From Cinnamomum chago (Eukaryota > Streptophyta > Magnoliopsida > Laurales > Lauraceae): a stretch of DNA of 64,000 nt. Position numbers and translations under genes: made by a program. Every line of letters starts with the position of its first letter. The stretch's first letter is position 1. Under the pieces are notes generated by a model. The model saw only the letters and a list, made by a program, of their open reading frames with translations, was not told where the DNA came from and searched no databases. This document shows positions 13,708-64,000 of this stretch, one piece after another. Where the stretch lies: contig CP142451.1 in assembly GCA_038049695.1 (NCBI GenBank), forward strand, positions 65,229,501 through 65,293,500. The letters run 5' to 3'.

Positions 13708-13720
13708 TCCTCCACCCCTT
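13708..13720 (-). promoter_or_regulatory. Tekay polypurine tract
   Basis: On the minus strand AAGGGGTGGAGGA directly abuts the TGTTAGACC start of the 3' LTR, the expected plus-strand primer of reverse transcription. Confidence 0.85.
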
Positions 13721-13744
13721 AGGATATTTGGTCCACCAAATAAA

Positions 13745-18430: not shown

Positions 18431-18546
18431 TAATGATGGTACAAGGGTTTCTAAGATCCTATACGAACGAATCTATCGAACACACGAATCCTCGCCACGT
18501 TCCTAAGACCTTTCTAGTTTCTTTTAAGTGCCTGAAACATGTCTCG

Positions 18547-18557
18547 CTCTGATACCA
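18547..18557 (-). promoter_or_regulatory. Tekay primer-binding site
   Basis: The minus strand reads TGGTATCAGAG a few bases after the end of the 5' LTR (18562), matching initiator Met tRNA. Confidence 0.88.
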
Positions 18558-18561
18558 GTCC

Positions 18562-25636: not shown

Positions 25637-25641
25637 AAAGG

Positions 25642-36175: not shown

Positions 36176-36422
36176 TTCCTCATAGGCTTCAAGTTCATCA
36201 AATTCTTCTTCTTTTAATTCAAGTTGAGATTCTTTAATTTCAATGTTTGAATCTCCATAAGATGGAAGAATGAGGGGTCTAGAAGAATCTACACAAGAAT
36301 CTACAAGGTCTAAACTAGTGGAATCTATTCTAATGATTTTTATGGAAGCACAACACTAGGGTTTAAACTCTAGGTTTTTGCACCTAATCAAGATACACTT
36401 GATCCTAATATAGAGCACGAGG

Positions 36423-36435: not shown

Positions 36436-38307
36436 TGAAAGTCCTTGGGATCCTAACCCTAGAGGGGGGGGGGGGGGGGGTGAGTAGGGTGAGCTACAAT
36501 TATGACTAATTTAAAACAATTTTAACTTCTTAACAAAAACTAGTCACAAGTGATGATTAACCATACAATATGCGGAAGCTAAACAAAAACAATCACCACA
36601 TAGCAATCACCACAACACAATATTTATAGTGGTTCAGCCAACGTGCCTACATCCACTACCGGCTTGTGCATCCAACACCCCACCGGATTTCCACTATTTA
36701 TGCTTTTTCAAAGGCTAAGCAATAACCTATACAAAGTTGTTTTTCTAGGCTCAACAACAACCTTTACAAGATGCTTTTCAAGGCTAAGCAATAACCCTTA
36801 CACAATGCTTTTCTTAGGCTAAGCAATAACCTTTACAAATCAAGAAGATTTTCTCAAAGATAGTGTTTACACAACACTCTAAGAGATTACAATTTAAGCT
36901 CAAATTAATTTGCCTCTAAATAGGCGGATATGAAAATGAAAACTAACTCACACAAACACTCAAAGAAATGCAAAGATGTATGCTTATGAAGTGTGTATGT
37001 GAAAACTTCAATCAAGTTTAAAAGTAAGCTCAATCAATTTATGCTTAATGCAATTCGAAAGTTTAAGGCACAAAAAGATATGATTGAAGTTCTATGCAAA
37101 TCACTTGAACAATTACACACTTGTGAATGATATGAAAATCTAAAGATCACAAGTTGTATGAAAGTGTTTAAGCCTAATCAAGTGATGCATGTGCAATGTT
37201 GTTTTCTAAACTAATTTGACTAAAGATTAAATGAATGAAAACAACAAGGGAAGTTTCAACCAAGTGAAATAATCATGCAATAAAAGAAATCAAAGATTTA
37301 GGCTAAGCATGATTAAGAAAGTTTAAAACAAAACTTGGGTTGAAATCAAAGTGATGAATCCAATCTTGAATATCAAAGATGAAGGGTAGAATGGATTCAA
37401 CACATCATAGTTATCATGTATAAAACCATTTACCAATAACTTAAACAAGCATGTAAACTATGATAAAGAAAGGTAGAGCTTACTTGGTGGTTTAACTCAT
37501 TAATCCAAGCTTTAGCTCTCCTAATGACCTTCTAGCCTTTCCAACTTCATCCCCTTTCAATGGCTCCAAAAATGGTCTCAAAGGTTCATGTGTCAAGCCT
37601 TGAAAAAGGTTGGAAATGAATGGACTTTATAGCAAAAAACAGTCCAACGGCTAGTCTCTCGGTCGACCTAGAAACAGGCCTCGGTCGACCATGAACACAC
37701 AACGGTCAAAAAAGTGACCGTTGGAGCTTCAGGTGCAGTCAAGCTGCAGTGTCCTCGGTCGACCGAGATACAGGTCTCGGTCGACCGACGACACTGCCGG
37801 GTGACTGCCCTGTTGACCAAAAATCCAATTTTTTCATATTTGAAGGTATTTCTTTGGGGAACTTTTTGGCCACTAAATCAAGCTTGAATAACATGTTTTA
37901 AGTCATTCTAAGATGTTTAAAAACATGAAACACCCAAAGCCTAAAATGACTTGAAACTTTAAAAACAAAGGCTAGCTTGATTTCTAAAAGCTCTTTTCAA
38001 ATGAAAATGCATACAAAACTGATTCTGAAAGTGATGAATGTATGCAAGGCTCAAACCTAAATTCTCAAAATGATTTTCCAAATGTAATGCACAAAGAATT
38101 AGGTTTTCAAAAGAGTTTGTATTCTAAAACCAATGCATCCAAGTTTAGAAACAAAACATGCATAAAACAAGATTTTTACAACTCTTTAAAAACAATGCAT
38201 GTATAAAACAAGATTTCAAGATTTTCTAAAACAATGCATGAGTGTAAATTCAAATGATGTGAATATGTTAATGCATCCATCAAATTGCAAATACAAAATC
38301 CCTAACA
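36436..38307 (-). repeat. S2 5' LTR
   Basis: 1872 bases, partner of 5077-6941. The length difference equals the longer G-run at about 36464-36480. The promoter module is at 37625-37790 and the 34-base array at 36705-36835. Confidence 0.92.
37625..37790 (-). promoter_or_regulatory. S2 5' LTR promoter module
   Basis: Minus-strand TATA (complement of 37625-37631), an exact MSA match TCCAACGGCTA at 37643-37653, a second MSA match on the other strand about 70 bases away, and four GGTCGACC-type palindromes. This copy sits at the 5' end of S2 and would drive its genomic transcript. Confidence 0.6.
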
Positions 38308-39082: not shown

Positions 39083-40752
39083 TGTTGGTAAATAGGTGAG
39101 CCATTCAGATAGGTTTCAAAACTTTTGACCCACTTGATGCAGGGATCAACTATCTAGAAGGCGACAAAACCCAATACAGGATGCAATCCCTCAAACTCAT
39201 AAATCATGTACAACAAAACATACAAGGATGTAGATTATACCTTTGGAGCTTTGTAGTGCTCTAATGGAAAAGTCGGTCTCTTTTTTTGATGATGAACACC
39301 TTCACTAATCAAATCAGAATATCCAACACCTTTTGATCTTCCACGCTATGACCCGTATCAGATTCTCTTTTCTCAAGAAGATGGTGGAATCTCCAAGAGA
39401 AAACCTAACTAGTAACTCCAAGGAACTAGAGGAGAAAGAGAAGAGAACTAGAAGAGGGAAGGGAGGAAGAGATGCAACACTTGCACTCAAATAAGGGGCT
39501 AGGCATGAATCCCTAGATGGAATAGCATGGAGGACGTCCAAGCCTCCTCTCCTCTTTTAAAGCACTTAAGCAACCTCCTCTTACTAATTGAAATAGAAGT
39601 CTTACTTCCATAATAATTAGTTGCTTACTAAATCACAATTAGAAGTCTTACTTCAAATATGACTAGTAACTTCCTCTTTTTCTAATTAAAATAGAAGTCT
39701 CACTTCCATTAATAATTAGTAACTTACTATTACCACTATTAGAAGTCTCATTTCAAGTAGAAATAACAACTTTCTATTTCCTTTTAGAGTTCTACTATAA
39801 TTAGTATCTTTTTAATATCTTGGGCTAGCGTGGGGACCACTAGGGATTCCTTAGAAAGCTGGCTCCAAATGGGACACGCGACCCCACATCTCACGTGCAA
39901 TCCGGGCCCACAGTCAATTGCAAATAACTCCACTATATAAATGCAATTGCACTCCAGTCTTAGGAATATATTACAATGAAGACCCTAAACTTCCTCAGTA
40001 CCACAAGTAGGCCCCTCCATCTATATCCATGGATCAATTGGACCTGTCCACCAAAATAGATCTATATCTTATTATCCTTGAGCCCCAATTAATTATAATG
40101 ATCATTTGGTACCTATCCAATTAACTCTTAATCGGAATGGGTGTGCACTTACCAATGATAAATCCATTAATTGGCACAAGGGGATATTAAAGATAGATTC
40201 CATCTTGACTATTGAATGTTCCCACAACTCTACTACCACGTACCCAAGTCACCGAGGTGTTGACCTACAATTGGCCTCACTCATTGGTGACTCAAAGCAA
40301 ATGAATAGATAGAAACTTGAGTTCATTAATGTCTCAAGATTATGAGTCTATTGCTAGGGAATTATGAGAGCAGAGCTTAAAGTTAAAGACAGTGTATATA
40401 AGGTGTATCTCATGGTCCTTCAATACATCCAATGTACCAGCACCATGATCTAGAATCTTACATTCCAATGATCGAGACAAATCACACTATCTCATAGTGA
40501 TCAAAGTGCTGCAACCTTGTCAGATGAGATGCCCAATCTCATCACTGGTTGCGAAGATATTTAAGTATAAAATTTGCAATACATGTCTCCTGTATGTGGA
40601 TCTCATCCATTATGTCATTCGTATTAGTTATGTGCAAACAAGTAATAAAACACCATTCATCTCATGAAAGGAAATCAATAATATATATTGATAAATAAAT
40701 AAATTAATCAATTTATTCATCATATACTGGTATTGAGACCATAAAACTAACA
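39083..40752 (-). repeat. LTR, probable 3' LTR of the Tat element
   Basis: The sequence starts tgttggt and ends actaaca. On the minus strand AAAGGGGAAAA (complement of 40753-40763) lies directly upstream like a polypurine tract, and TGGTATCAGAG lies directly downstream like a primer site. An LTR normally has only one of these. Being bounded on both sides by element-internal sequence suggests a shared LTR between two recombined copies, or an LTR of a different element abutting the Tat internal region. Confidence 0.6.
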
Positions 40753-42720
40753 TTTTCCCCTTTGGTCGCCGTTTCGTCGGCCGTTTTTTGAGTTTTTTTG
40801 CTTCTTTTGTCTCCTGTATTTTTCTTGACATTTCCCTCATTTTTTGGCTTGGTTTTCCTGGAGAAAATCCAACGAGAAGTTGCACAAAACCGGGCACAAA
40901 GTTTCCTATTTTTTGGAAAAGCCGAAGACTTTGCCGCGCAGAGTTGCCGATTTTTGTCAAGAGTTGAAACTAGGTCAAACGCTGTCGGAATGACCTGAAA
41001 TTTGACGTGGAGCTTCCCGAGCAGTAGATAGGACCAACCATGGGCTTTGGTTTGAGTTTTGAAGCCGTTTGGGGTCCCATTGCTGCTAGGCTTGATTTCA
41101 CCGCGAGGAAGATGTCGCGCTTTAATGTGTGGTCAACCGATGTCCGATTGACCTGAAATTTGACATGGAGCCTATTGGAGTCATTTTGAGATGATCCATT
41201 AGCTCTGATTTGGATCTCATGGTTCTGGGGTGCCACGCTGCCGGTAGCCTTGATTTTCTTTCGGAGCATCAAAGTCGGGTCAAACGTTGTCGGAATGACC
41301 AGAAACTTGACGTGCAGCCCTTTTGAAGCATGTTGAAGCCGCCCATGTGCTCCGTTTGATGAGTAATGGTCTCGGTGGTTTTCGCCACTGAGGGGCTTGA
41401 TTTTCTTTCGGAGCTTCGAAGTCGGGTCAAACATTGTTGGAATGACCAGAAATTTGACGTGGAGCCTTTTGGAGGTATTTTGAGACCATCCGTAGGCTCT
41501 GATCAAGGTTTTGATGTCTTCGACTTCGTCGCCGCCAGGAGCGCCTGTTTGGGTTCCGGAGGAGTGAAGTTAGGCCAAATGATGTCGGAATGGCCTGAAA
41601 CTTCATGTGAACTCCTCTTTTGGCTGTCTTGAAGGATCTATCAGTTTTCAAGTGATTCTAACAAGATCTGATGCTTAAAGCGGCATTGCCCATTTGTAGT
41701 AGGATGTGCCTCGAAGAGAAACTTGAAGGAGAGCTTTTGACTTGACCAAGAGTTTTTGAGCTTTTTTATTTTTTGAATAGCCTTTTGAGTTTCCAAGGGG
41801 ATTTTATGGTAGTGAGAGGAATCACGTACCATCTCAAGGCAAAGTCTTGAAAATGACATGAGGGAGTTCGATTTGGGTTTTGGATTTTAGGTTTTCCTTT
41901 TGATCTTATGAACCTAAAGGCTTTATGTGGCGCATCAGGCGATCAAGAAGGATTTTTTGGTTTTTGACCTTGTGACCTAACAAGCTGTATGTGGCAGGTT
42001 AGGGGGTTGGGGCTTATTTTTTGGATTTTGACCTTGTGACCCAACAAGCTGTATGTGGCAAGTTGGGGGATCATGTTTGGTTTTGACCTTGTGTCCTAAC
42101 AAGCTGTATGTGGCGAGTCAGGGGGTCAGGGATTTTTGTTTTGGCCTAACAAGCTTTATGTGGCAAGTTAGGGGACCAGAGTGTGGTTTTTTGTGGGTTG
42201 TCAATTTCAAGATTTTGACTCAATTTGGTTCATGAGGTGGGATGGTTTGCTTTTTTGTTTTTTTTTTTTTTGGAAACTCATGAGGCTTTTTTTTTTTTTT
42301 TTTTGAATGGTTCGATCGACTCAAAAGAGGCATGGAACCATTTTGTATGCTCTTGGTAAGAGGAATTTTTGAAAGGAACCCCCTTTTAGTGCCTAGGTGG
42401 TCAAACCTGACTCATGTGGGCTTAGATCTCACATGGTGTCATTTTGTAAAGAATATCTAAAAATATCTCTTTTGGATAGAGAATATCTAAAAATATTCTT
42501 ACTTGGAGAGAATCTCTCAAGTTTCTTTTCTTTTGGGAGAGATTTTCTCAAAGTATCTCTCTTTGGGAAAGAATATTTTTCATTCCCTTTCTTTTTGGAG
42601 AAAATTTCTCAAAGAATCTTCTATTTGGGAGAGAATATCTAAATCTCCTTTCTTTTTGGGAAGGTTGCTAATTTTTAGCACTTACCTCCTTTCTTTTCTC
42701 CTTGTTTCCTCTTTTGGTTT
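40753..42720. repeat. Tandem-repeat blocks upstream of the PMD gene
   Basis: No gene. Block 1 (about 40960-41640): five units with gtcggaatgacc at 40984, 41142, 41289, 41436 and 41584, period 147-158 bases. Block 2 (about 41900-42190): five units around aacaagctgtatgtggc, spacing 52-72 bases. Block 3 (about 42440-42670): 30-55 base units of gagagaatatctaaa / cttttggga. Poly-T runs lie near 42255-42305. Confidence 0.75.
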
Positions 42721-42729
42721 GCTCTCTTC

Positions 42730-42737
42730 TATAAAAG
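42730..42737 (+). promoter_or_regulatory. TATA box of the antisense PMD gene
   Basis: tataaaag, followed by a pyrimidine-rich leader and an ATG at 42863 in the context atcaatggc. It points away from the probable 3' LTR and so is separate from the LTR promoter. Confidence 0.5.
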
Positions 42738-42872
42738 CAAGATGAGATTGGATCTTTGCTTCTTTGCTTTCTTTCTTTGCAAGAATCTTCAAGAGTGCTC
42801 CGAGATCAAGAATTCTCCTTCTTCTTCGAAGATCTTCAAGCTTTTCTTCTTCTTCTCCATCAATGGCTTCAA

Positions 42873-43775
42873 GTACATTTTTTTTTACAAGAAATTTTCA
42901 TTGCAGAAGTAGACTTTTCTTTTCTTTTCTTTCTTTTTCTTTTTCTTTTCTTCTCTCTTTTTTTTCTTTCTTTCTTTCTTTTCTTTTTCTTTTCTTTTTT
43001 TTTTCACGTGCTGCCCCCCTTTTTTTTGACCTTTTTTTTTTCTCTTTTTTTTTTTGCACGTTTTTTTTTAAACTTCTCTCTCCCTTTTTTTTTTGCCTCT
43101 CCTTTTTTGCTCATTATGATAATGAAGTTTATGCACCATGACGATGAGGTTTTATGCATTCCGAGATGTTCATGCACGTTTGTTTCTTTTTCCCTTTTCT
43201 TTTTATTTTTCCTTTTTTGTGATGCATCAAGATAAGAGGCTAGAATCTCTAGGTCATGTCAACATGAATTTTGACTTTAACAGAGTTTGATTGGTTTTGA
43301 TCAAGTTGGGTTGGAATTGATCAAGCTTTGGTTAAAGTTTTTTTCCTAGCATCTAATGCATGATGACTTTCTTTTATGCATGCTTTTTGTAAATTGATTG
43401 GGAGCATGATGATGCATACCTAGAAATCTTTTGCAAGTTTTGGGATTTGGAGCTCGTAACAATGTTGAGCCCTTTCCTGATTTTGCTGGATTTTTTAGGA
43501 GCTTTGCAAGTTTCGACGTTTGGAGCTCGCAGCAATGTTGAGCCCTTCTTCAAACTTTGTGGAGATTTGATGAGATTGGTTTGATCTCGTAGCGATGTTT
43601 GAGTTGAAACCTTCTTTGAGGATACTTCTTTGAGCTCATCTTCAAGCTTCCTATCTTTGTCGGGATGTTTCCCTTTTCTTCGGAATTGTCCCGGAATCAT
43701 GCAAAAATTTCGCTAGAATTTCTCTTAGCAAAATTCTGTCACTTTAATGATTGATTTTTTTTATCCTGTTGCAGG
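42873..43775 (+). other. Putative first intron of the PMD gene with polypyrimidine tract
   Basis: About 0.9 kb bounded by gtacat and tgttgcag. It holds an almost pure C/T stretch at 42905-43110 and two imperfect units around ggagctcg...caatgttgagccctt at 43450-43540. Phe/Ser-only frames across the tract are not genes. Confidence 0.55.
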
Positions 43776-45108
43776 TAGTTCCTCCAGAACGAATAAGGGC
43801 AAAGAGCCTGCTTCTGATGCACCTCGTCAGTCTACCAGGTCTCCTAATGTGGCCATACAGCAGGCCTGGGAAAAAGTCCAGTTTGTGGAGAGAAACTTGG
43901 AAGAGTGGACTCCCTCATTCAAGATGAGATGAGACAGTGATTAATCGCTCTCAAGGATGAGGAGTTCTATAGGACTGTGGTAAGCAATCGACCTTGGGTC
44001 ATGGACGATCAGAGCGTTGTGCTCAAGCCTACCTTCTTCTTTGGCCATGCAGTCCCTGGCGACTTGACGTACCAAAGAAGATGCTCTCAGTTCTCTTACA
44101 CAGTTGATGGTGCGGAGAGAACTATTTCTACCCGGTCGACCTTTGATCGGACTGTCTCTATCATGAGTCTTTCTCCCACGTGTCCCAAGTGGGAGGATCC
44201 TCCAAGCTGGGTGAAGAGGACCAATGTGATAAAGACCGGGGTTTTCGTTGGCGGTCCTTCCGGATATGCGGAGAAGTCGCCCGTCCATATGGACATGTTG
44301 ATGCCCTCTGGTGGCTACCAAGGTTCTGACCATCCATAGGTCAGTTTGAGACCGGTTGGCCTTGGCATATTTCTGGGTGACGGCGGCAGTTGGGTGAAGC
44401 CTTTTCGACTTCGTGGCCGTTTCAGTGCCGATTCGAGCTGGGAATCATGGATTGATCACACCCTGCAGGTTGGTGGAGCCATTTTGAAGGAGGACGGGAT
44501 CTTTGACGCGGTTCGCGCTTTTCGGAAGACCGTGGTTTTCTCTGATGAGGCCTTCGTGGCCATGCTAGAGTCATTCCTTCCGCAAACCAACAACTTCATT
44601 ATGACAAATGGTGAGATTGGTTTTACTTTGAAGGAATCAAGCGTCATCACCGGGCTGCCTATCCTTGGCAAAATCTATGAGGAGTTTATGCCTATCGATA
44701 GCGTTCTTGAGGAGCAGTCTGAGGAGTTCAGGCTCCTGTACTTTCAGCTTCTCGCCTTCTTTGATTTTTTGAAAGAGAAGGAGGGCTCGAAAGTCCGGTG
44801 CAGTAGTTGGAAGAGTTGTGGCTCCAACTTCTTTGACGGTGGATAGTCTTCTGGAGGTGTCGCCCCAGATGCTAGGTCCAAGAACCCAGAGTCGAAGAAG
44901 ATCTCCGTTATGCGAGATGTCTTGAAGAAGTTCTTCAAGAGTACAGACGCCATTTGTCCTGACATTGCACTGTGAAGAGATCTCGCTGTTTACCTCACTT
45001 ATTGGTTGGATGAGGCTGTTTTTGCTAGAGGAGATGGAACAAACATCAGGCCGCATTGTATTTTTCCGGCTTGTCAGATGGCATTCAGAGAGCGGTTGGC
45101 TTTGGTAC

Positions 45109-46874
45109 TGTTAGGAATTTTCTAGATTGCAATTTGATGGATGCATTTCATTCTAGCATCATTTGATTTACACACTTGCATTGGTTTTAAATAAACTTGA
45201 AATCTTGTTTTATTCATGCATTGCTTTTAAGATTTGTAAAAGTATTGATTTATGCATGATTTGTATTTTCATCTTGGATGCATTTGATTTAGAAAAGAGT
45301 TTTCAAGAAATCAAGCAAGCCTTTGTTTTAAAAGTTTTGAATCTTTTTAGGCTTTTTATGTCATGTTTTAAAAACCATTAGAATCTTTAAAACATGTTTT
45401 CCTAGCTTGATTTAGTTGCCAAAAGGTCCCCCAAAGAAATAACTTTGAAATGGCAAAAGTTGTTTTTTTGTCAAAAGGGGGTTGTCCCGGCAGTGTCGCC
45501 GGTCGACCGATAGGTCTCGGTCGACCGAGACAACTGCAGGCAAATTTTGCCTGGGAGCACCAACGGTCAGAAATATGACCGTTGTGTGTTCTCGGTCGAC
45601 CGAGGCCTGTTTGCCGGTCGACCGAGAACTAGCCGTTGGCAACTTTTTGCTATAAATATGAGTTCTTTCCCTTGCCAAAAGTTGGGAATTTTTAACCCCT
45701 CCTTGAGAGGATTTGAGGCATTTCAAAAGGGAAAAGAACCAAGGGATGAAGGGGAAGATTGGGAAAGCTAAAGCTTGGATTAATGAAGTTAAACCACCAA
45801 GTAGGCTCTTCCTTTCTTAATCATATGTTTTCATGCTTTGTTTTATTTTTGGTAAATCATTTCTAGCATGATAAACTATGTTTGTGTTGTGTCCTTAACA
45901 TGTGTTATGTTTTGAGTTGATTTATTGTTTTGGATACAACACCATATGATTCAATTCAAGTAGTACTTAACTTTGGTAAATCTAAGTAGATCATGTTAAT
46001 GTAAAAACCTTTGAAATCATATGTAACATGATCCATATACTTGGTTGAATCTTTGGTTGTTGTTTTCCATCATAAGAAAATCACTTTCAAAACTATCTTA
46101 TGTTTTGGACTCAACCTCTTTACAAATCATATGTTCTCATGTTTTGTTTTATCATTGGTAAATCTTTGTAACATGTTAATATATGATATGTTGTATCCTT
46201 AGCATATTCTATATTTTGAATAGATCTATTGTTTTGGATACATCACCATTGATTCATCAAAGTAGTACTTTATTGGTAAATCTAAGTAGATCATGTTAAT
46301 GAAAGATGTAACATGATTCATATACTTTGTTGAATCTTTGGGTGTTGTTTTCCATCATAAGAAAATCTCTTTCAAATGTATCTTATGTTTTGGATTCAAC
46401 ATCTTTACAAATCATATGTGTATTATTGTTTTAATACTTCACAACTTGCCTTACTTTGATTGGTAAATCTTTTTCAAGTTGTCCTTATAATTACATATGA
46501 TTTGTCCCCTCTTTTCAATCAAATCTATTTTTATGTTTTGAGCTTCATTGATGATTTGATTGACATCCCTATGCATCACATGTTTAGAGCTAATCCATTT
46601 CATACAACTTGTGTAACTCTGATACCATGGAAATCCGGTGGGGTGTTGGATCACAAGCCGGTAGTGGATGTAGGCATTGAGGCCGAACCACTATAAATAC
46701 TTGTGTGATGGTGCTTGCTTTGTGGTGATTGTTTATATTAGCTTCCGCATATTGTTTGATAATCATCACTTGTGACTAGTTTAAGTTAAAGAAGTTAAAA
46801 TTGATAAAATTGGTCATAAAAGAAGCTCACCCTATTCACCCCCCCTCTAGGGTTCGGATCCCCATGGACTTACA
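45109..46874 (+). repeat. S3 5' LTR
   Basis: Begins TGTTAGGAATTTTC and ends GGACTTACA. Promoter module 45499-45658: GGTCGACC palindromes, the inverted repeat caacggtca / tgaccgttg, an MSA-like GCCAACGGCTA on the minus strand at 45630-45640 (one mismatch) and TATA at 45651. It is shorter than its partner. Confidence 0.9.
45499..45658 (+). promoter_or_regulatory. S3 5' LTR promoter module
   Basis: Palindromes at about 45499-45508, 45517-45530, 45592-45603 and 45614-45626. An AACGGTCA inverted repeat lies at 45561-45583, and TATA (tataaata) is at 45651-45658. The layout is the same as S1 and S2 although the S3 LTR belongs to a different subfamily. Confidence 0.58.
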
Positions 46875-49507
46875 AGTGGTATCAGAGAGGGTTACTCCAT
46901 TTTTAGGGCTTAACAACCCGGAGTTGATCCTTGCTAGATTTGAACCCTAGTGTTGTCATTTATTGCATATCTTTTAAAGATTTCCACTATGTTTGAAATT
47001 GAAATTTTCCCTAGCCTCTTTGCACCACTCTAAGACTTTCTCAAGTTATATCTTCTAAAGTTGGTGAGTCCTCAAAGTGATCTTTCAAGGACAACCTTTT
47101 CAAGGCTTTAGGTGAATTTTCAAAGGTAGACTATTTGAGTAACCTTAGGCCTTGATCCCCCTAGACCAACCTATGCTTTTTAGTTATATCTTTTTGTTGG
47201 TCATGTTACATTTGCATTTTGTTTCTTTAAAGTCACATCTTTTAAAATGCAATGTTTCTTTGTGATCATTTGATTTTGTCTTCATGAACTTTTAAAGTTA
47301 TATCTCATGGTTTTCAAAATCCTTTGATTGCAACTTTGGAAAATGTTCTAAGCTTTATTAGTTATATTTCTAGAAGCATTTTCCTTGAATTTATTTCCTT
47401 GTGCCTAATTATGATTATATCATTTGGAAGGAAATATTTTTTACAAACAATTTGCATCTTTGCTCATTGAGTTACATTCTTTATGCAAATTGATTTTGAT
47501 GTATTACATTGCTTGGTTGGATATGGTTTCATTGATTTGCATGTTTGTGCCTAACTTGGTATATTCTCATTAATGCATTTTGATGATTGTTTATGTGCTT
47601 TATAGTAAAATCTTGTATTTGAGCTTTTTAAGTACATATGTGATTTTATGTGCTAAGTTCATTTGGTTTAAACCTCATATCCTTTTCCATTGCATTGTAA
47701 GCATTAGTACATTTGCTAAGAGTGGAGATGTTACATGATAGATTGATTCCTTTAACTTCATACCTTCTTGTGCTTAAATAGTTATATTCCTTTTTGGATG
47801 ATTGGTATGAGTTAGATCTTGAATGTTGATTAATCCTCTCTATGCAAATGTCATAGTGTTCTATGTATGGTTGTGGTATTTATTATATTTGTTGAAACCA
47901 TACTAGAACCCAAATCCATCCTCTTTGCCTTCTAGTCATATCTTTTTGGATGGTTATGATGTTGATTCATGTAGATTCTCTTGGAGTCATCTTTATACAT
48001 GTTTCAACTTCATAGTAGTGATCTTGCTCATATGAAACTCTTTGAAATCCATTCCTCATATTTCTATGTGTTTGATGGATAACTTAGATGTTGAATTCAT
48101 ATGATTTAGTCACTTTTAAATTGCATGCATTTCAAAGTCATATCCTTTAGCATTGCAATTTATCTTGTTCATCACTATGCTCAATAGTTATATCTTTAAA
48201 AGTGATGAATATGCATTTATGATGCTTGATGGAAGTTTGCCACATTCTTGCTCTTTATCATGTTATCAAATTCAATTGGTTTCTATTGGTATAATTCTTG
48301 ATTGATTTGATTTCTTGAGAATGTGATAAACCTTGTGTACATTGGATTGAACTTGCTAAGTTATATTTTTGTTCCATGTCACACACCATTAGCATCATAA
48401 TGCTCATGTTGCCACCTCCTTTGCTCATATAGGTATATCTCATGACCACCATGTTTATGTGTTCATAATATTGGTTGGTTATTAGTTGAGGTTGGCTTCA
48501 TGTTTGAATTTCATTTCACTCCATTTGCACTTTAATAAGTCATATTTATTGATTGAATGAAATGATTTTCAAAATCTTACATAGCATATGATTTTCATAA
48601 GTAATATTGATTGATGCTATGTTTGAGTAAACCCCATATCATGGATAGCTCTAATTTGGATTTCTCATAATAGTTATACTTTTAAATCCATTTTAGAGTG
48701 ATTGATTTATTAAGTCATATCCTAAATCTCAATTGGTATTCTTTGTTTGTCCAATTGATATCCATGATTGCTTTTCCCATTTGACCTAGCTCTCTTTTGG
48801 TAATTTGATCATATTGAGCTTTATAGTTAAATGAATCTAATCCTTTCCTTGAAGTTGACCCTCTCTTGGTTAAACCATCTTCTTCTTGCATCTAATAGTT
48901 AAATCTTTGTCAAAAGTTTGACAAAAGAAGAGATTGGATTGAGGGGGAGTGTAAACCTTCATAGGAAGAATTAGTTTTGATCAAATTGACCCTTGGATAG
49001 CCTTTGAGCCCTTAGAGACTTTTTCCATACATGATAGCCTGTTATGTATTTCATTTTCGATTTCATTTGTTAACAGGTGCTTCTAAAGGTATTTTCCTTG
49101 TTTCATGTGTGTAGGTACCTTTGCAATTTAATGGCAAAGGGGGAGAAATTATGCAAGTTCTCAAAAGGGTAAAGAGAATGTCCAAGCTTCCTAAGGGGAG
49201 AGTTGTGTATGATCTTCTACAAGGGGAGAGAATACATACCTTGCCAAAGGGAGAAAGAGGCATGGTCAAAGGGGGAGAGCTAATAGAAGAAAGAAAGCTT
49301 GGAAGCTAAAGAAGATGCTTGGCTAAAGAAAGAAAGATTGAAGAATGATCAAGCTCCAAGCATCATGAAGAATGAAGAAAAGAGCTCAAGCTAAGAGAAG
49401 GAGCATCCAAGAAGATTTCAAGACTTGTCCAGCTGAGGGGGAGCTGAAGACTAAGTGTGTAATCTCAGTGGTGAGTGTGTTTGCCATCAAATTGCAAAGG
49501 GGGAGAT
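46875..49507 (+). other. S3 internal region, non-coding
   Basis: A primer site is at 46877-46887, followed by short gag-region remnants and about 2.3 kb aligning with 21370-23698 of S1. Purine tracts include one near 48941 (ttgagggggag) and the terminal one at about 49495-49507. No protein-coding gene is supported. Confidence 0.8.
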
Positions 49508-51762
49508 TGTTAGGAATTTTCTAGATTGCAATTTGATGGATGCATTTCATTCTAGCATCATTTGATTTACACACTTGCATTGGTTTTAAATAAACTTGAA
49601 ATCTTGTTTTATTCATGCATTGCTTTTAAGATTTGTAAAAGTATTGATTTATGCATGATTTGTATTTTCATCTTGGATGCATTTGATTTAGAAAAGAGTT
49701 TTCAAGAAATCAAGCAAGCCTTTGTTTTAAAAGTTTTGAATCTTTTTAGGCTTTTTATGTCATGTTTTAAAAACCATTAGAATCTTTAAAACATGTTTTC
49801 CTAGCTTGATTTAGTTGCCAAAAGGTCCCCCAAAGAAATAACTTTGAAATGGCAAAAGTTGTTTTTTTGTCAAAAGGGGGTTGTCCCGGCAGTGTCGCCG
49901 GTCGACCGATAGGTCTCGGTCGACCGAGACAACTGCAGGCAAATTTTGCCTGGGAGCACCAACGGTCAGAAATATGACCGTTGTGTGTTCTCGGTCGACC
50001 GAGGCCTGTTTGCCGGTCGACCGAGAACTAGCCGTTGGCAACTTTTTGCTATAAATATGAGTTCTTTCCCTTGCCAAAAGTTGGGAATTTTTAACCCCTC
50101 CTTGAGAGGATTTGAGGCATTTCAAAAGGGAAAAGAACCAAGGGATGAAGGGGAAGATTGGGAAAGCTAAAGCTTGGATTAATGAAGTTAAACCACCAAG
50201 TAGGCTCTTCCTTTCTTAATCATATGTTTTCATGCTTTGTTTTATTTTTGGTAAATCATTTCTAGCATGATAAACTATGTTTGTGTTGTGTCCTTAACAT
50301 GTGTTATGTTTTGAGTTGATTTATTGTTTTGGATACAACACCATATGATTCAATTCAAGTCGTACTTAACTTTGGTAAATCTAAGTAGATCATGTTAATG
50401 TAAAAACCTTTGAAATCATATGTAACATGATCCATATACTTGGTTGAATCTTTGGTTGTTGTTTTCCATCATAAGAAAATCACTTTCAAAACTATCTTAT
50501 GTTTTGGACTCAACCTCTTTACAAATCATATGTTCTCATGTTTTGTTTTATCATTGGTAAATCTTTGTAACATGTTAATATATGATATGTTGTATCCTTA
50601 GCATATTCTATATTTTGAATAGATCTATTGTTTTGGATACATCACCATTGATTCATCAAAGTAGTACTTTATTGGTAAATCTAAGTAGATCATGTTAATG
50701 AAAGATGTAACATGATTCATATACTTTGTTGAATCTTTGGGTGTTGTTTTCCATCATAAGAAAATCTCTTTCAAATGTATCTTATGTTTTGGATTCAACA
50801 TCTTTACAAATCATATGTGTATTATTGTTTTAATACTTCACAACTTGCCTTACTTTGATTGGTAAATCTTTTTCAAGTTGTCCTTATAATTACATATGAT
50901 TTGTCCCCTCTTTTCAATCAAATCTATTTTTATGTTTTGAGCTTCATTGATGATTTGATTGACATCCCTATGCATCACATGTTTAGAGCTAATCCATTTC
51001 ATACAACTTGTGTAACTTTGATATCATTAACAAGTTGTTACTTTTAACATGTGATTGCATTATATCCTCAATCATAAATGTTTTTGAGCTAAAACTTTCA
51101 AAAGCCTTAGGCTTACATTTATGAACTTTCATTTTCAAAATGATTGAGGATCACACACACACACACTTCATTTGTTTTCATCTTTGCATTCATAGTGTGA
51201 GTGTGTATTTGTATTTCACTTCCATATCCGCCTATTTAAGAGGCAATGTAATGAGCTTAATAGAATCTCCATCAAGTGTATTAAAGACACTAAATTAGAG
51301 AGATAACCAACCTTGTGGTTGAAGAGGTTATTGCTTAGCCTATAAAAGCATAATGGATAGGTTGATGTTAAGCCTTGAAAAACATCATTGTAAGGTTATT
51401 GCTTAGCCTTGGAAAGCATATTGTAAAGGTTATTGCTTAGCCTATTGAAAAACATAAATAGTGGAAATCCGGTGGGGTGTTGGATCACAAGCCGGTAGTG
51501 GATGTAGGCATTGAGGCCGAACCACTATAAATACTTGTGTGATGGTGCTTGCTTTGTGGTGATTGTTTATATTAGCTTCCGCATATTGTTTGATAATCAT
51601 CACTTGTGACTAGTTTAAGTTAAAGAAGTTAAAATTGATAAAATTGGTCATAAAAGAAGCTCACCCTATTCACCCCCCCTCTAGGGTTCGGATCCCCATT
51701 TGGTCATAAAAGAAGCTCACCCTATTCACCCCCCCTAGGGTTCGGATCCCCATGGACTTACA
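49508..51762 (+). repeat. S3 3' LTR
   Basis: 2255 bases, partner of 45109-46874. Promoter module 49898-50057. A 34-base-type array gcttagcc...aaaagcat is at 51325-51455, and the end carries a doubled ctcaccctattcaccccccct...ggatccccat segment. Confidence 0.9.
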
Positions 51763-54329
51763 GGTACCAACTCTTTACTCCTACTTATGTACCGAACTGC
51801 AGGCTGCTGCTTTCTTGGTTCGGCTAGGGCTCCCTATGAACAGGGTATTTTCAGCCCATATTTTTTATTCGTGGTATGTGTACCACTGTCCTGGCTTCCA
51901 CTGTTAGGAGTTGCGCAGGATGATGACCCTTTCATGATTCGGTTGACTAGAGGGACAGCCGTTTCCGAATCTCTCTTGTTTGCCCGTTTGAGGATCCGAC
52001 GGTTCAGGGACGTCGAGATCGGGCAATCTTTAGTGAAGCTTTCTCTAGGTTTGCGGAAGAAGGCTTTTGATTTTGGAGCCTCCCATGATTCCACCAGGGC
52101 GGGGTCAAGAAGACAGTACTCCTTCACCAATGCAGAAAAAGGATGGATTTTTAGCATACGTGTTGGTATGATGGTGTACCGAAGACATCTTTTTATTGAT
52201 ATCCAGCCGTATGTTCCCTCGCGTTTTGCGCTGCAGTTGGGCTTCTCTTAAGGCGTTGTTGGAGCGCCTTCGAGTATGGTGAAGCGCTTTGGAAGTTTAC
52301 AGGATGGGAGGAATGCATGGGCCTTTTATAGTACGGAAGACACAACCGCCATGATTTCCTATCCTGAGTTGCCCACTTTCCGGACTGCTGGCTTCACGAA
52401 ATGGTTCGTGGAATGCTTTTCTGAGTACCGAGGGCTTTCCAGGAAGGAGCTTGATGTCAAACAATCTCTTGGGAAGGGTCTTGGTAGATCGGATGGAGTC
52501 CGTCGAGAGGAAGTCATGGCTTTCCTCTCTGGAGAGAAGCACAAGATAGGCTTTCTCAATGAGCAGGACATCATCAGACCAGGAGTTGTACAAGAGATAC
52601 CTAGTGAGGTCTTGGAACAGCTCAAAGAGGAGGAAACCAAGATCGACGCTTGGATGCAAGTGGAATTAACGAAGGCTTCCATGGATTCCATTGGAAAGAG
52701 TAGACCATCCGGTGAGGAACCAAGCGAAGCTCCTGACTTTGACAGTGGGGAAGGTACTTCAAGTAAACCATCCCATAGAAGCAAGAGGAAGAGAGGGCAG
52801 TGCCGCAATAAGAGACGACACGATGACTCTCCTGATTTGGAAGTCCCACTCACCACTGCTGAAGAGATGTCTGGGGATGCTGATGAGCCTCTGGAAAAGA
52901 GGAGCTGAGAGGAAGAAACCGTTGATGAAGGTATGATTCCTCTTTCTTCCCTTTTCGTTTCTTTCTTTGAGATTTTCTTATTTTTTATTTGCCTTCTCTC
53001 CCTTTTTCAGTGGAAGATGAGGACTTGGTGATGCATGAGGTCCCGGCTGATGAAGCAGCGACGAATCCAATTACGGCATCTGAAGAAGAACCGAGGGACT
53101 CTGGAGTGATTCCAGAATCTTCACCTGGTATGACTTCTTTGTATTTTCTTTCTTTTTATGTCTATGCAGTCATCTGCTAACATGTTGCTTGTTTTCTTGT
53201 CAGCTGACTTGCCACAGGATTCCGACGATTTTGAGCCATCTATGGACGCGGCCTTTGATGACACTTCGGATGAACTCATGGAGGCGGAAAGTATTCCGCC
53301 AATCGTCGAAGAAGGTATTTGTAGCAATAACCCTGATGATAATGATTTTTTTCAACAGGATCATATTCATACCTTTTTTTTTGCTGGCAGATTGTTAGGC
53401 GACAGAAGAAGTTCCTCCGTCTTTCTCAGTGCCAGAGCAGGGGATGCCTGCAGTTGAACCAGAAGTAGGGACTTCTTCTTCTAGTTTTAATGCAGCAGAG
53501 ATAAAATCGTCTGAGTAGATTCCTTCGCCAGTGTCTCCGGTTAAAAAGAGCTTAGTGATCACTCCTCTGGCAGGACAAAACACGAGTAATCGACCAATGG
53601 AGAGGGGCGAGCCTTCATCCAGGCCATCTCTTGATTATGCGAAGAAAGTGTTGAAGAGCGTTTTGAGCTCATGGATCGAAACTCTTTCTTCATGCCATTT
53701 GGAAGCTGGCTTTGGCATGGTTAAGCACGTACAGGACATCCTTGCTGATAGTGAAAAAGTCGGCCTGGACATTGCAGATGTGAAGGCTTTTGTTGATGAA
53801 GTCATAGCTCTAGGGAACAAATGGAATGAAACCAAGAGCTTCCCAAGTGGTGACTTCTTCAATGAGATGTTTTTGAAGCCTTCTGGCAAAGTCAAGTCGG
53901 AGCTGGACGAGATCTCGCAGACTCGGAAGCAATTCGTTCGGGAGAGGAACGTTACCGAGTTGGCTATCATCGGGCTGACAAAGGATCTGCGCCGTATTGA
54001 TAGGGAGGTCGTTGAGACCAGGCAACGTCTTGAGCTATTGGAGGAACAATTTTCCGCGACATGGGATGCCATTGTGAAAGTTCGTACCAGGGAAGGGTCT
54101 CTGATTCGCCAAGTCGAGGAGATTGAAAGCAATCTCCGAAGGAAGACTCAAGAATACGAGCAATGGCAGATTCTTTGGGAAGAGCTTCCCCGTGCTGTAG
54201 ACGGATTGCGGCGTTCTACCGCATTCTATGGGAAGATCTTGAAGAAGCGTGGCCTAGAAGCTTTAGAGGCTAAGGCCAAGACTCTGCTTGAGGAATTGAG
54301 CCTCTGGTTGAAGACCATGTGAGACTGAG

Positions 54330-55680
54330 CTCTTGATTCTTGTAACAAATCCTTTTTTTTCTTTTTTTTTGGGTACCCGTGTATACACATATTTTTTTTG
54401 TACTCTTTCTTTTGTAGTGCTTGTGGACATTTTTTTTAGCACTTCTCTTTTTTGTATTCCCTCCTTTCACTCAAATTCTTTTGTGATAAATTCAAGCAAT
54501 AGTTGAATGGGAATGTTTGTTTGGAAATTTGATCAAAAGTTTGTCATTTTGTGAAAAACCTTTTGTCAAATGGTTGTTTTGGCATGAAACCCGAATTTTG
54601 AGATGGCGTGGAAGCCAAAATTTGGGCCGGCGTGGAAGTCAGGATTTTGAGGCGTAAAAGACAAAATTTGGGATGGCATGGAAGCAGGATTTTGTTTGTG
54701 GCATGGGAGCCAAAATTTTGAAATGGCATGAAAGCCGATTTTTTGAAATGGCATGAGAGCCAGGTTTTGTGGCACAAGAGTCGATTTTTGGGATGGCATG
54801 GAAGCCAGTTTTGTTTGTGGCATTGATAGCCGGGATTTGTTTTTTTTTTTTTGTTGGCATAAAAGCCGAAATTCTTTTTTGGCATGGAAGCCGAAATTTT
54901 GTGCCGTTTGTAGTCGAATTTGTGGCGTTTATAGCCAATTTTTTGTGGCATTTATAGCCAAGTTTGTGGCGTTTACAACCGATTTTGTGGTGTTTATAGC
55001 CGATTTTGTGGCATTGATAGCTGGATTTTTGGCATTTATATCCGATTTTTTTTGTGGCATGAAAGCCGGGTTTTTGGCATTTATAGCCGATTTTGTTGAA
55101 AGCCAAGTTTTATTTTGTTAGCGTGAAAGCTAGATTTTGTGGCATTTATAGCCGAGTTTTGGCGTGAGAGCCGGATTTTTGGCATTTATAGCCGATTTTT
55201 GTGGCATTTATAGCCGATTTTTGGCTTGAGAGCCGGTTTTTTTGCATTTATAGCCGATTTTTTTTTGTTTTCAAAAGTGCAAGTATCGACTAAAAGTCAC
55301 CTTCTTGCTAAATGGTCTTGCAAGTATCGATGGAATGTCGCCTCCTCGTAGATTTGGGAGCAAGTATTGACTAAGCGTCGCTTTCTTGCTTTTTTCAAAA
55401 TTTTGGTTTTGTGGGTATCGATGGAATGTCGATTCCCCACGTTTTTTGAAATTTTGAGGTCTTTTTTTTTACCTTGGTTTTTTGTTTGAATTTTGGGTTT
55501 GTGGATATCAACTGGAATGTTGGGTCTCCACGATTTTTTGAAATTTTGCAAGAATAGACAAAGTGTCGCTTCCCTGCGATTTTGAAATTTTGGAAGTATC
55601 AAATGGGGTTCGCATCCTTCTGATTTTTTGGTTTTGCGAGTATCGACTGAGTGTCGCTTCCCCGCGGTTTTCTAAAAAAA
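54330..55680. repeat. Short tandem repeats between the converging PMD and pol 3' ends
   Basis: From about 54590 to 55260, some 35 degenerate 20-25 base units of the type ggcat-ggaagcc-gaatttt and ggcatttatagccgattttt. From about 55280 to 55660, further units around caagtatcga-tggaatgtcgc. Long frames across them are shadows. Variable 3' tandem repeats are known in Ogre/Tat elements and can seed satellites. Confidence 0.8.
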
Positions 55681-56035
55681 CCTTTTTTTTTTAAAGACAC
55701 GAGGGTCGTAAATTTTGACTTAAAACCGTTTTAACCGTTTTTGGTTGTAAAAGTCAGGGTGGATTAGGGTGGAAATCCCTAAATCCTGATTTTGTTTCAA
55801 ACCATGAATTTTGGTTTTTAAGGATCGAAAGTTCGGTCAAGTCCGGGAAAAGGCTCCTAAACTTGGATTTTTGGATTTTTTTTGAACAATGAAACTATGA
55901 AAGTAAGCATCGTTTTGAAATTTTAGAAATCTCAACATAAGGATGAAAAATCTTAAAGTGGCAGGTTTGACGAGCGTGTACCTGAGAATAGGCTTTGGCC
56001 GTGCAAGCACTACTCTGACCCAATGGCGCAAGTCT
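55681..56035. other. Spacer after integrase, no gene seen
   Basis: A/T-rich unique-looking sequence between the tandem repeats and the integrase stop. I see no coding region or clear signal. Confidence 0.6.
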
Positions 56036-58312
56036 TCAAGGGCAGTACCGCTTCAAGAACTTCCCGTTGATAGGCAGCATACATTTGTCACCTTCTATGT
56101 TTAGAAGTGCGTATGCGCCACTGGAGAAGACTTTGTCAATGACGAAGGGTCCCTCCCATTTTGGTTCGAGTTTTCCTTTGGATTTGTGGGAAAAAACCAT
56201 TAGCCTTTTCACTGTAAGAACCAAGTCGCCCTTTTTATAGATGCGTTGCCTGACCTTTTTGTCGAAAGATCGTGCCATGCGTGCTTGGTACAGCTCAATG
56301 CTTCGTAAGGCTTCGAGTCGTCTTTCGTCGAGATTGTCCAGTTCTTGGAGTCTCAGTTTGGCATTGCTTTCTTGCATTATGTCATTTTGCAAAGATACCC
56401 TTAAGGAAGGAATTTGTACTTTCAAAAGGACAACAGCTTCGCATCCATAGACCAAAGAGAATGGTGTGCTATGGGTTGGTCCTCGAACGGTGGTTCGATC
56501 AGCCCACAAAGCTTCAGGTAGTTTGTCTCCCCAATCTCTTTTGTGACTAGAGAACATTTTCTTGAGAGTTTTGCAGAGTGTCTTGTTGAAGGCTTCTGCT
56601 AGTCCGTTTCCTGCCGGATTATACGGAGTCGAAGGACAATTTTGGATTTTGTATTTGTCGCAAAACCTGTAGAATCGTTGATCCCGAAATTGTGGTCCGT
56701 TATCATGAACGAATCTTTTAGGTATGCCAAAGCGGCAAATAATGTTGATGCGCAAGAATTGAAGGACTGATGAGGTCTTCATTTCACTGAGCGCAAACGC
56801 TTCTGACCACTTGGAGAAATAATCTGTAGCGGCGAAGATGAAGCGATGGCCTTTGCTTGACGGGGGAGAGATAGGACCTATGATGTCCATGCCCCAAGCT
56901 TCGAATGGCCATGAGATTGTTGTGGGGTGTAGCCATTCTGGAGGCATGTGGACATAGTCTCCATGAACTTGGCATTGGCGGCAGCGTTTAGCAAATTGCA
57001 TGGCGTCAAGTATCATGGTAGGCCAATAATATCCCAACCTTTTTATCTGATCGCAGAGCTTGGGACAAGCCTGATGAGCTCCACAAAGACTAGCATGTAC
57101 TTCTTTGAGGGTTTCCGCAGCCTCTTGTTGTGACAAGCAGCGCAGAAGTACTCCGTCGAAGGATTTTCTATAAAGCATTTTTGAAGGTATGTCCAAATGA
57201 AAGTTCGGGGCTAATCTTTGGACACTTACCCGTTCTTTTGGATCTTCAGGAAGGATTCCGAACATGGTGTAATCGATGAACGGATCTCTCCAGTCGCCGA
57301 TCGGAGGTTTGAGGATGGAGATCCGACTTCCGGCCAATTGGTGGCATTCAGCAACTGCTTGGTGTGTGTTAAGAAGAGGGAGAATCCTTCTTTGACACAC
57401 TGTAATTTGTATGTTTTCCCCTTCCTGGATTGCCATGGATGCGGTAAGTCCGACCAAGGCATCTGCATGGATGTTCTCACCTCTGAGGATGTGGATGATG
57501 TGACAGATGTCCAACCTTTGGCGAAGTGATTGTGCCTTATTGTAGTAAGGAAACAAATCAGGCTTCCTGACTTCAAATTTCTGATTCATCTGGTTGACGA
57601 TCAGTTGAGAGTCCCCAAAGACTTCCAGCATGGTGATGCCAGATTCTAGGGCGAGTTCCAATCTCACGATGAGAGCTTGGTATTCAGCTGCATTGTTTGA
57701 GCATGGTTCCACTAGCGAGAAAGCATGTGATATCATTTGCTTGTCGGGGCTAACAAAGAGGATGCCAGCTCCCGAGATCAGCTTTCTTTTTTCATTTGTC
57801 CTAGTTGCACCGTCAAAGTACATGTCCCAGGAGGCATTTGGTGAGAAGGTTTCCACGTTGTAGACTAGTCCGTCTGGGAGATCATCTCTGAGTGGGGAAT
57901 CTTTCGGCAACGGATGCTCTGCAAGAAAGTCTGCTAGAGCTTGGCCTTTGATTGCCTTTTGTGGTACATACCTAATATCAAATTGTAATAGAAGGATGGA
58001 CCATTTTGCCAGTCGGGCATTGAGAGAACCTGCTTTTGTGACAATGACCTTTAAGAGGTTGATCCTCGAAATCAGGTAAACTGTGTTCGAAAGAAGGTAG
58101 TTATGTAGCTTTTGTACGACGAACATCACCGCAAGGCATTCTTTCTCGACTGGAGAGTAGCGATGCTCCGCACCTACCAGCATACGACTGAGGTAGTACA
58201 GAGCAACTTCTTTGCCCTTGTCATTCTCTTGTGCGAGCAGAGCGCCCAGAGAATGGTTGAGAGCTCTTGTGTACAAGATGAATAGTTTTCCAGTGGTAGG
58301 GACAGCCAGCAC
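56036..58312 (-). pseudogene. pol: Tat pol: RNase H, second (archaeal-type) RNase H, integrase
   Basis: A 758-residue open piece. Residues about 1-130: Gypsy RNase H (LFILYTRALNHSLGALLAQ ... YSPVEKECLA). About 155-290: a second RNase H with the acidic set MYFDGATR, NNAAEYQAL, FGDSQLIVNQ and ENIHADAL, typical of the added Tat domain. About 390-450: integrase zinc module (CRQCQVHGDYVH). About 460-640: integrase core (AWGMDIIGPI, HDNGPQFRD, NGLAEAFNKT). Then a C-terminal domain ends KRYCP. It removes template RNA and inserts DNA. Part of the broken Tat polyprotein, with reverse transcriptase just upstream. Confidence 0.88.
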
Positions 58313-58369
58313 TGGAGGTTTAGTTAGGTATGTCTTGATGTCTTAAAATACTGCTTGACATTCAGCATC

Positions 58370-59233
58370 TCAAACAAAGTTCACACCTTTCTTCATTAGG
58401 CGAGAGAAGGGACAACATTTCCCTGAGAGATTGGAGATGAACCGTCTGATGTATGCCAATCTTCCTTGAAGTCCTTTCAATCCTTTTAAGGTTCTTGGAG
58501 AAGGCATTTCTAGAATAGCTTTGACTTTGATGGGGTCAAGTTCTATTCTACCTTTTCGAACTATAAATCCTAGGAACTTACCCGACGAGACGCCGAAGAA
58601 GCATTTCAAGGGACTCATTCGCAATTTGTGTTTGCGAAGTCGGAGGAAGACTTCCCGAAGGTCTTTTAGATGGTCTTCTTTTCTTCTGCTTTTGACGGCG
58701 AGGTCATCAACGTAACATTCCACCGTCTTGTACTGCATATCTTGGAATATCTTCATCATAGCCCTCTGATATGTGGCACCAGCATTTTTCAGACCAAATT
58801 GCATGACAGTGTAGCAATACAAGCCAAATGGGGTCCGAAATAATGTGTGTTTTTCATCTTCAGGATGCATCTTTATTTGATTGTAGCCAGAGAATCCATC
58901 CATGAATGTCATTCGCTCAAACCCACAGGTGTTGTCAATCATCACCTCTGGTATGGGGAGCGGGAACTCATCTTTGGGGCAAGCGCCATTTAGGTCTCTA
59001 TAATCAATACAGACCCTGATTTGCCCATTTTTCTTTGTCACGGGGACGATATTGGCCAACCATTCAGGATGTTGTTCCGCACGGATGAAGCCGACACTTT
59101 TGAGTTTTTGAGCTTCCTGTTCAATTTTGTCCATCACGTCTGGACGGAATCTTCTTTGGCCTTGTTTGACAGGCTTGATATCTTTTTGAAGATTGAGTTT
59201 ATGAACTGCTATTTTGGGGTCTAAGCTGGGCAT
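58370..59233 (-). pseudogene. pol: Tat pol: reverse transcriptase
   Basis: A 287-residue piece with the main reverse transcriptase motifs: RVCIDYRDLNGACPKDEFPLP, FMDGFSGYNQIKM, QFGLKNAGATYQRAM, the catalytic YVDDLAVKS, KCFFGV and the GRIELDPIKVKAI connection. The upstream piece reads KPVKQGQRRFRPD, normal for Gypsy. It lies between the G-patch/protease part and RNase H; the element's coding is broken. Confidence 0.9.
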
Positions 59234-59239
59234 TTCAGC

Positions 59240-59767
59240 ATAAGACCATGCAAAACAATCAACAAACTCACGAAGAAAAGAGATATACTAGGGTAACTCA
59301 TCATCCTTTATATTCTTACTTATGAATACAGGACGTGGGTCATCTGGTGTTCCCAAGTCTATCTTTTGAACAGGATCTTCTGTTGGAAGGGTCGAAGGTG
59401 GTCCCTTCACAATATTTTCAGAGGCTTCCAACTCAACGAAACCTTCTGGAGTTTCAAGGGCATTTTTAGACCAAGGCTTTGTTTCTGGCCAGAGGTCTTC
59501 AAGATCGATGATCTTCTCAAGGCTTGCTATGAGATGGTCCCAATCACCTGTTGAAACTGGGTCGAAGTAGCGTACTTATTTTGGAGACAATGGTTCTTCT
59601 GGGTCAGAACACCACATGTCTGTATCGTCGGATAATTCCTCTTCATCATCAGAGAAATCATACCGATTGGTAGAGCATCCCGGATCCTTGACGGGTGACT
59701 CTTCAAAGAGATATCTAGGGAGATCGATGTCTTCAAGGAAATGAGATGTTGAGGCTTGGTCGGCAAA
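59240..59767 (-). pseudogene. Tat linker between G-patch and reverse transcriptase
   Basis: Acidic, Ser/Thr-rich minus-strand coding remnants (for example SLDISLKSHPSRIRDA near 59700) without a recognised domain. It probably belongs to the pol linker. Confidence 0.4.
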
Positions 59768-60132: not shown

Positions 60133-60845
60133 CTACGTCGGTAGGTTCTCTATTGGAGGTAGAGCAGGCTGAACTTGTTGAGTGTCAGCTTGGCATGACG
60201 GTGTATCGTCTTCTGGCTCTGACTCTGAATCCGTGTCTTGCATGATAGACACGAAAGAGACAACAAACTTGCCCCCAGACTTTTGCTTTGTCTTCTTTGC
60301 CTTGGTTGTTATGACCAAAGGCTTTGAAGATTTGAGGGAGACAACGAATGGAGATGGATCTCTCTCTTCAGATTTACCGGAGGAGTTTTTTTCTTCCGAT
60401 GATCGCTGAGGAGCCTTGCCTTTATCTTTCTGAAGATTTTCAGCAAGGGGCGCTATTTCTTCGTCCTTTTCTTCTTTTTCATCTTTGTACATCTGAGCAT
60501 CTGCAAAGTGGACTTCTTTGCCTTTGAAGGGCTTTTTATCTGCAAACACTCGATGTATCGAGTCGTCATTGCTAACGAACTTGATGCATTGATGTAGAGT
60601 TGAAGGGACGACACCATTATTGTGTATCCAAGGACGCCTAAGGAGGGTTTGTAGCATAAAGGGGTTCTTATTGCGTACACAGTGACTTCAGAAATAAGAT
60701 CACCGATTTGAAACTTGAACCTGATTTTGCCGATAGGCCTTTGAGCGCTCCCATCGTACCCAAAGATGGATACAGACGTGTGACTCAGCTTGCTAGGTGG
60801 GATGCCCAGCTCTTCAAGCGCCGAAGTAGAGATGTGGTTAAGCAC
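60133..60845 (-). pseudogene. Tat pol: aspartic protease region
   Basis: Two overlapping frames cover a retropepsin-like stretch: ELGIPPSKLSHTSVSIFGYDG, then GKIRFKFQIGDL, then RRPWIHNNGVVPSTLHQCIKF, the usual tail of plant Gypsy proteases. A long acidic, Lys-rich linker (KDEKEEKDEEIAPLAENLQKD) leads to the G-patch piece. The family call rests mainly on the PWIHNNGVVPSTLHQ-like block. Confidence 0.65.
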
Positions 60846-63888: not shown

Positions 63889-64000
63889 GAGAGCCTCAAT
63901 CCTTTGTTAACCTTGCTCCAATTGCTGGATTCGTGCGGTCGTTTCATCCGGAGGTGGATTGCGAGGTTGCTCGGAGTTTGTAGCCAAGACGTTCATCGTC

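Follow-up and report, generated by a model that had tools for sequence, protein, structure and literature searches.

A degenerate Tat element with a coding region on the opposite strand

The DNA examined here is a 64,000-nucleotide (nt) stretch of Cinnamomum chago contig CP142451.1 (the window), which the repeat map showed to be plant DNA crowded with nested long terminal repeat (LTR) elements. Pfam profile search of its reading frames revealed a decayed Tat gag-pol on the minus strand, from 63906 to 56036. On the opposite, plus strand there is a split coding region, the pieces of which extend from 42863 to 54322 and include parts of a plant mobile domain (PMD). An original prediction, made from the letters of the sequence alone, had placed here an antisense, intron-bearing PMD gene with its own promoter inside a Tat retrotransposon. 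We read the locus as a dead, large Ty3/gypsy element of the Tat lineage (Ogre/Retand group) carrying a reverse-oriented PMD accessory gene between integrase and the 3' end, and put the probability of this reading at about 0.82.

The predicted gag-pol was recovered domain by domain on the minus strand. The gag lies at 62692-63906 (Retrotrans_gag, E 2.8e-11), the remains of a protease at 60453-60947 (Asp_protease_2, E 0.0036, under the cut-off) and the reverse transcriptase (RT) at 58370-59287 (RVT_1, E 2.9e-28); RNase H (RH), a second RNase H (aRH) and integrase (INT) occupy 56036-58342, with matches to RT_RNaseH, RVT_3, rve and Integrase_H2C2. The hallmark of Tat, RT_RNaseH followed by RVT_3 and then rve, was found within a single frame of 768 amino acids (aa). 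In published work, the Ogre and Retand clades of angiosperm Tat elements are recognised by just such an additional RNase H, situated between RH and integrase (PMC6317226).

Among 43 pattern matches in genome contigs, a single relative of the window RT was found, L001 (BMWJ01000029.1, 4,661 bp). The contig is labelled Streptomyces clavifer and is probably contaminating plant DNA in a bacterial assembly. At the protein level its RT is 93% identical to that of the window, and its DNA is 83.4% identical to window positions 61974-57225. L001 has one open frame of 1,553 aa, in which RVT_3 also comes after RNase H. Compared to L001, the window copy has 6 stops in 1,553 codons and 8 frame-shifting length changes: at seven sites it lacks 1-2 bases, and at one it has 4 extra. 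The ratio of nonsynonymous to synonymous substitution (dN/dS) between the two copies was 0.066 for RT (305 codons) and 0.136 for RH-aRH (373 codons). The low ratios, taken together with the stops and frameshifts, indicate that pol of this family was once constrained and that the window copy has decayed.

Domains and candidate exons of the antisense gene

Ten stop-free plus-strand pieces of the coding region were searched in Pfam. The profile search, on which the original prediction had staked its PMD, matched PF10536 in two of them: 44340-44843 (model 1-59, E 4.6e-7, 29.8 bits) and 44976-45107 (model 111-149, E 0.073, 12.7 bits). The two matches lie in a common frame and in the correct order, and the predicted domain appears as a fragment that scores below the curated cut-off. 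In a PDB sequence search with the PMD piece, three chains came within E 1, the best of them at 0.11, and were rejected; an AlphaFold model of the same piece was set aside (mean predicted local distance difference test score, pLDDT, 41.6).

At the 5' end of the gene, the forecast signals were found as sequence. A candidate TATA box, TATAAAAG at 42730 (42730-42737, plus strand), is followed by a candidate exon 1 consisting of ATG and 7 nt (42863-42872). This 10-nt exon joins in frame with exon 2 across a candidate GT-AG intron of 902 nt in phase 1 (GT at 42873, AG ending at 43774), and the spliced frame starts MASSSSSRTNKGKEP; the junctions had been predicted at 42872/43776, within 1-2 bases of these. 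The remains of exon 2, with the N-terminal part of the PMD as judged from frames and PF10536 matches, occupy 43775-45108. From 45109 to 51762 a nested LTR element lies within the PMD, and the gene continues beyond it at 51763-52930, as judged from frames and motif, in a segment that has no Pfam PMD match and carries the predicted basic stretch KRKRGQCRNKRR at 52783-52818.

Downstream of the basic stretch are two candidate acidic exons, 53011-53127 (117 nt) and 53204-53314 (111 nt), both in phase 1 at either end and both multiples of 3 in length. The candidate GT-AG introns before and between them, 52931-53010 (80 nt) and 53128-53203 (76 nt), are in phase 1 and match intron 1; ahead of the acceptors of all three introns the pyrimidine content is 0.8-1.0. 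Another candidate, the 84-nt interval 53315-53398, is weak in pyrimidines ahead of its acceptor (0.53), and the reading frame changes after it. The candidate last exon (53399-54322) has one stop, at 53516, and then a 267-aa open frame with a putative coiled coil at about 53885-54316. The coiled-coil segment named in the prediction corresponds to a long helix, predicted for residues 123-244 of piece 53519-54319 (10-residue block mean pLDDT 68-97, single-sequence prediction; 70.1 for the whole model). A PDB fold search with this model gave 5 matches at E up to 10 and none at 0.001. In NCBIfam, 7 weak matches were obtained, in the coiled-coil piece only, the best being to SMC at E 0.0035. Matches to DUF3786, DUF724, KASH and DUF1798 (E 0.018-0.28) were rejected as coiled coil or chance.

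Employing shuffled sequences, we compared the open lengths at the locus with those arising by chance. The spliced open length of 52252-54322 was 1,667 nt, as compared with 937 +/- 101 nt in shuffles (maximum 1,204), and none of the 200 shuffles reached it. The 267-aa frame of the last exon was likewise reached in 0 of 1,000 shuffles. The 3' half of the antisense gene is unlikely to have arisen by chance. A frame as long as the 168-aa PMD frame was reached in 17 of 1,000 shuffles, so that the evidence for the PMD there is the Pfam match rather than the length.

Several results weigh against our reading. Neither PF10536 score reaches the curated cut-off (34.9 bits), which may be expected because the pieces are fragments, and the other 8 of the 10 pieces showed no PMD match in Pfam. 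The two acidic exons and the coiled coil are without homology support. In the spliced-length comparison, the reverse strand of 52252-54322 gave 1,329 nt, exceeding every shuffle; the comparison alone therefore cannot fix the strand. The antisense genes of Retand carry Transposase_28 in all but two of 63 clusters (PMC11963269), whereas the window gene has a PMD instead; Transposase_28 (PF04195) was absent from all ten pieces at E up to 10, in a decayed gene and with HMMER filters that discard most weak matches. L001, the sole relative found, ends before the antisense region, and no relative with that region was found in the scans of genome contigs, viral contigs and the L001 assembly. Against the L001 assembly, the PMD piece and the coiled-coil piece gave 0 matches each; in viral contigs, the PMD, RH-INT, basic and coiled-coil pieces gave 5, 1, 8 and 11 pattern matches, respectively, with 0 relatives in all four scans. 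PF10536 had 0 matches in 392 genomes of the genus by which L001 is labelled and 0 also in 14 control genomes, so that this result is uninformative. Finally, the probable 3' LTR at about 40754-42680 has no LTR partner in the window; a 5' partner, like the primer binding site, would fall past 64000.

The scores under the cut-off, the 17 shuffles with a frame of 168 aa and the high value of the reverse strand would all suit another explanation, namely that these are chance frames opposite pol with a chance match to the PMD. Such an explanation would have to account for an E value of 4.6e-7 accompanied by a further match, collinear with the first and sharing its frame, and for a 267-aa frame and a spliced frame that no shuffle attained. 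We regard it as improbable in the extreme.

Decay and nested insertion

The antisense region derives from a genuine gene, which is dead in the window copy; its protein cannot be made. It contains eight stops (43930, 44337, 44844, 44973, 51905, 52249, 52906 and 53516). The frame changes in three places or more, near 43930-43941, 51904 and 53398. The PMD is further split by a plus-strand LTR element 6,654 bp long, which has LTRs at 45109-46874 and 49508-51762 and is flanked on either side by GGTAC, a target duplication. The frame before the insertion ends RERLALV, and the same frame, translated separately, resumes PTLYSYLC beyond it. The outline of the gene as originally predicted holds; the stops, the frame changes and the nested element had gone unmentioned.

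The LTRs of the nested element show 3 mismatches over 1,766 aligned bases, besides 489 gap columns, and their near identity indicates that the element inserted recently. Its internal part has no open frame of at least 80 aa save one of 80 aa, on account of which the element looks non-autonomous. LTR-like repeats of its family are located at 5077-6941, 7369-9299, 23672-25643, 36436-38307 and 45109-51762, in both orientations and 71-99% identical. The right LTR ends in a 56-bp tandem duplication (51644-51753, 96% matching), which a length-variable array at 51325-51456 adjoins.

Arrangement of the antisense gene and pol

Its position to the left of the antisense gene was the basis for assigning the segment from about 40754 to 42680 (minus strand) as a probable 3' LTR with neighbouring sequence. 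The proposed LTR has tandem repeats inside and ends at a pyrimidine-rich stretch at 42681, and it appears to be cut on the left by another LTR. As to the location claimed for the gene, its orientation, convergent with integrase, was borne out, and the LTR at its other side is the unpaired one. With the LTR pair outside the window, we infer that gene and pol belong to one element. The sequence that seems to truncate the proposed 3' LTR on the left, 39091-40753, is probably the LTR of a minus-strand element, judged by eye from its ends and the primer-site-like TGGTATCAGAG next to it; the element owning it is presumably Copia-type.

Between the convergent antisense gene and pol there is a spacer of 1,713 bp (54323-56035, no strand assigned), delimited by repeat search. 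Its only repeats are tandem ones within itself, and the rest of the window offers it no partner at E <= 1e-20. No plus-strand gag-pol was found rightward of the gene: the three plus-strand frames of 100 aa or more listed between 55000 and 64000 were all without a credible Pfam match. That no gag-pol trails the PMD gene on its own strand favours a single element. Among four plus-strand frames, matches to PsaM, Rhodanese_C and Neuraminidase-like (E 0.033-0.091) were rejected as chance, one frame being matchless.

These observations bear on an arrangement of two elements tail to tail, in which a plus-strand Ogre-type element would carry the PMD gene in sense orientation near its 5' LTR, which would supply the TATA box at 42730, and the gag-pol would belong to the other. 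PMDs of Ogre elements have been published, and the passages on them do not bind the extra open reading frames (ORFs) to one position (PMC6317226). A first intron 130 bp past the TATA box would also suit an LTR-driven gene, and the LTR pair of the Tat element, lying outside the window, leaves room for such an arrangement. Against it, no plus-strand gag-pol was found downstream of the PMD gene within the window, and the spacer holds tandem repeats only. Moreover, the introns of a sense gene would tend to vanish from genomic RNA. We consider two elements unlikely.

The introns, on the other hand, would also be natural in a host PMD gene of the PMD-B or PMD-C type, or a fragment of one, captured by the element or lying beside it, and capture of PMD-C genes by Mutator-like (MULE) elements has been described (PMC5418596). 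Against a host origin, there are PMD clades confined to Gypsy elements (PMC5418596). The interval from integrase to the 3' end is, besides, the usual site of antisense accessory genes, and we think a host gene very unlikely here.

Relation to known accessory genes

The extra ORFs of Tat are reported by Steinbauerova et al. (2011) to vary most in where they lie and how they are oriented, and some of them are said to contain a transposon-associated domain. In Ogre elements the LTRs measure 1.9-6.5 kb and there are one or two extra ORFs (PMC6431247); 57% of Ogre elements carry a PMD (PMC6317226). The PMD was the commonest non-canonical domain in one survey, with consensuses from ten species (PMC9289625); the clades PMD-A1 and PMD-A2 were found exclusively in Gypsy elements (PMC5418596), and PMD loci of tea yield phased small interfering RNAs (PMC10673657). 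Like the Gypsy PMD-A1/A2 genes and the Ogre PMD ORFs, the window gene appears to be a PMD gene of a Ty3/gypsy element whose aRH lies between RH and INT; it differs in being broken and interrupted, and the passages concerned in those two papers (PMC5418596, PMC6317226) are silent on the position and strand of the PMD.

In position and orientation, the closest counterparts are antisense genes. The antisense ORFs of Retand lie between pol and the 3' LTR; they resemble the window gene in orientation, tandem repeats beside pol and Tat lineage and, given its probable 3' LTR, in position (PMC11963269). Grande, RIRE2 and Retand have been reviewed (PMC7264820), and gene23 of Grande is likewise an accessory gene that runs opposite to gag-pol and lies in the 3' part of the internal region; the passages on it mention no PMD, and the promoter upstream of the gene and the nuclear product are reported there for gene23 only (PMC7264820). 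In a survey of 15 Ty3-gypsy families of common bean, an antisense ORF2 was described in families such as pvRetro13 (PMC4093653). The relevant part of that paper mentions no PMD, and its frames are of 211-939 aa, in contrast to the split and decayed window gene with its weak SMC match. We found no explicit published description of an antisense 3' PMD gene with introns, a weak negative because figures and supplements were outside the search. Other antisense genes at this site, which the original prediction looked for, are on record for the lineage at large, not for this family. Antisense accessory genes and Gypsy PMDs are already known, and the window copy is a defunct further example.

The plant mobile domain is shared, too, by MAIN and MAIL1, which are host genes of silencing: their products, which interact with PP7L, are needed to keep transposable elements silent (PMC5418596, PMC7156037).

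Possible function in intact relatives

The window copy cannot function and contributes anatomy only. In intact members of the family, transcription may start from a promoter beside the 3' LTR, near the position of the TATA box at 42730, and the antisense mRNA would be spliced and translated into a nuclear protein with a PMD and a coiled coil. A promoter of the gene's own, as originally proposed, would accord with the one TATA box and with the analogy to Grande gene23. Splicing of the genomic RNA passes over introns that lie on the opposite strand, which would thus persist through reverse transcription.

Through its PMD and coiled coil, the product might bind itself or host chromatin factors and might tune transcription of the element, in line with proposals made for gene23 of Grande and for the antisense ORFs of Retand. 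For antisense accessory genes, a role in regulating the life cycle of the element has been put forward (PMC7264820, PMC11963269); by analogy, the odds that the product of the window's family has such a role appear to us about even. Of the original interpretation, the Tat element with its antisense PMD gene is supported; for interference with host silencing the sequence holds no evidence. Ikeda et al. speculate that MULE elements deploy captured PMDs against silencing (PMC5418596). Interference with silencing of the MAIN/MAIL1 type would be one possible form of the regulatory role, though we hold it unlikely. Equally speculative is a specific version, in which the spliced nuclear protein of intact copies would act as a decoy of the MAIN/MAIL1-PP7L silencing machinery, a counter-defence of the element that keeps its introns through its antisense position. 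Should intact relatives be found to splice the gene and to show purifying selection on it, PMD antisense genes would offer a testable link between retrotransposon accessory genes and the host silencing factors MAIN and MAIL1. The same evidence would bear on whether Gypsy or genic PMDs came first, a question left open in PMC5418596.

Other elements in the window

Away from the Tat element, a pair of LTRs of about 2.8 kb (10922-13707 and 18561-21364) is 98.7% identical and encloses an uninterrupted gag-pol frame of 1,575 aa on the minus strand (13745-18472); 10922-21364 is apparently an intact Ty3/gypsy element. Two similar long frames, 9380-10834 (plus strand, 484 aa) and 34763-36355 (minus strand, 530 aa), have a coiled-coil look and are gag-like, each with a weak match to a CCHC zinc knuckle (E 0.0014 and 0.0045, respectively).

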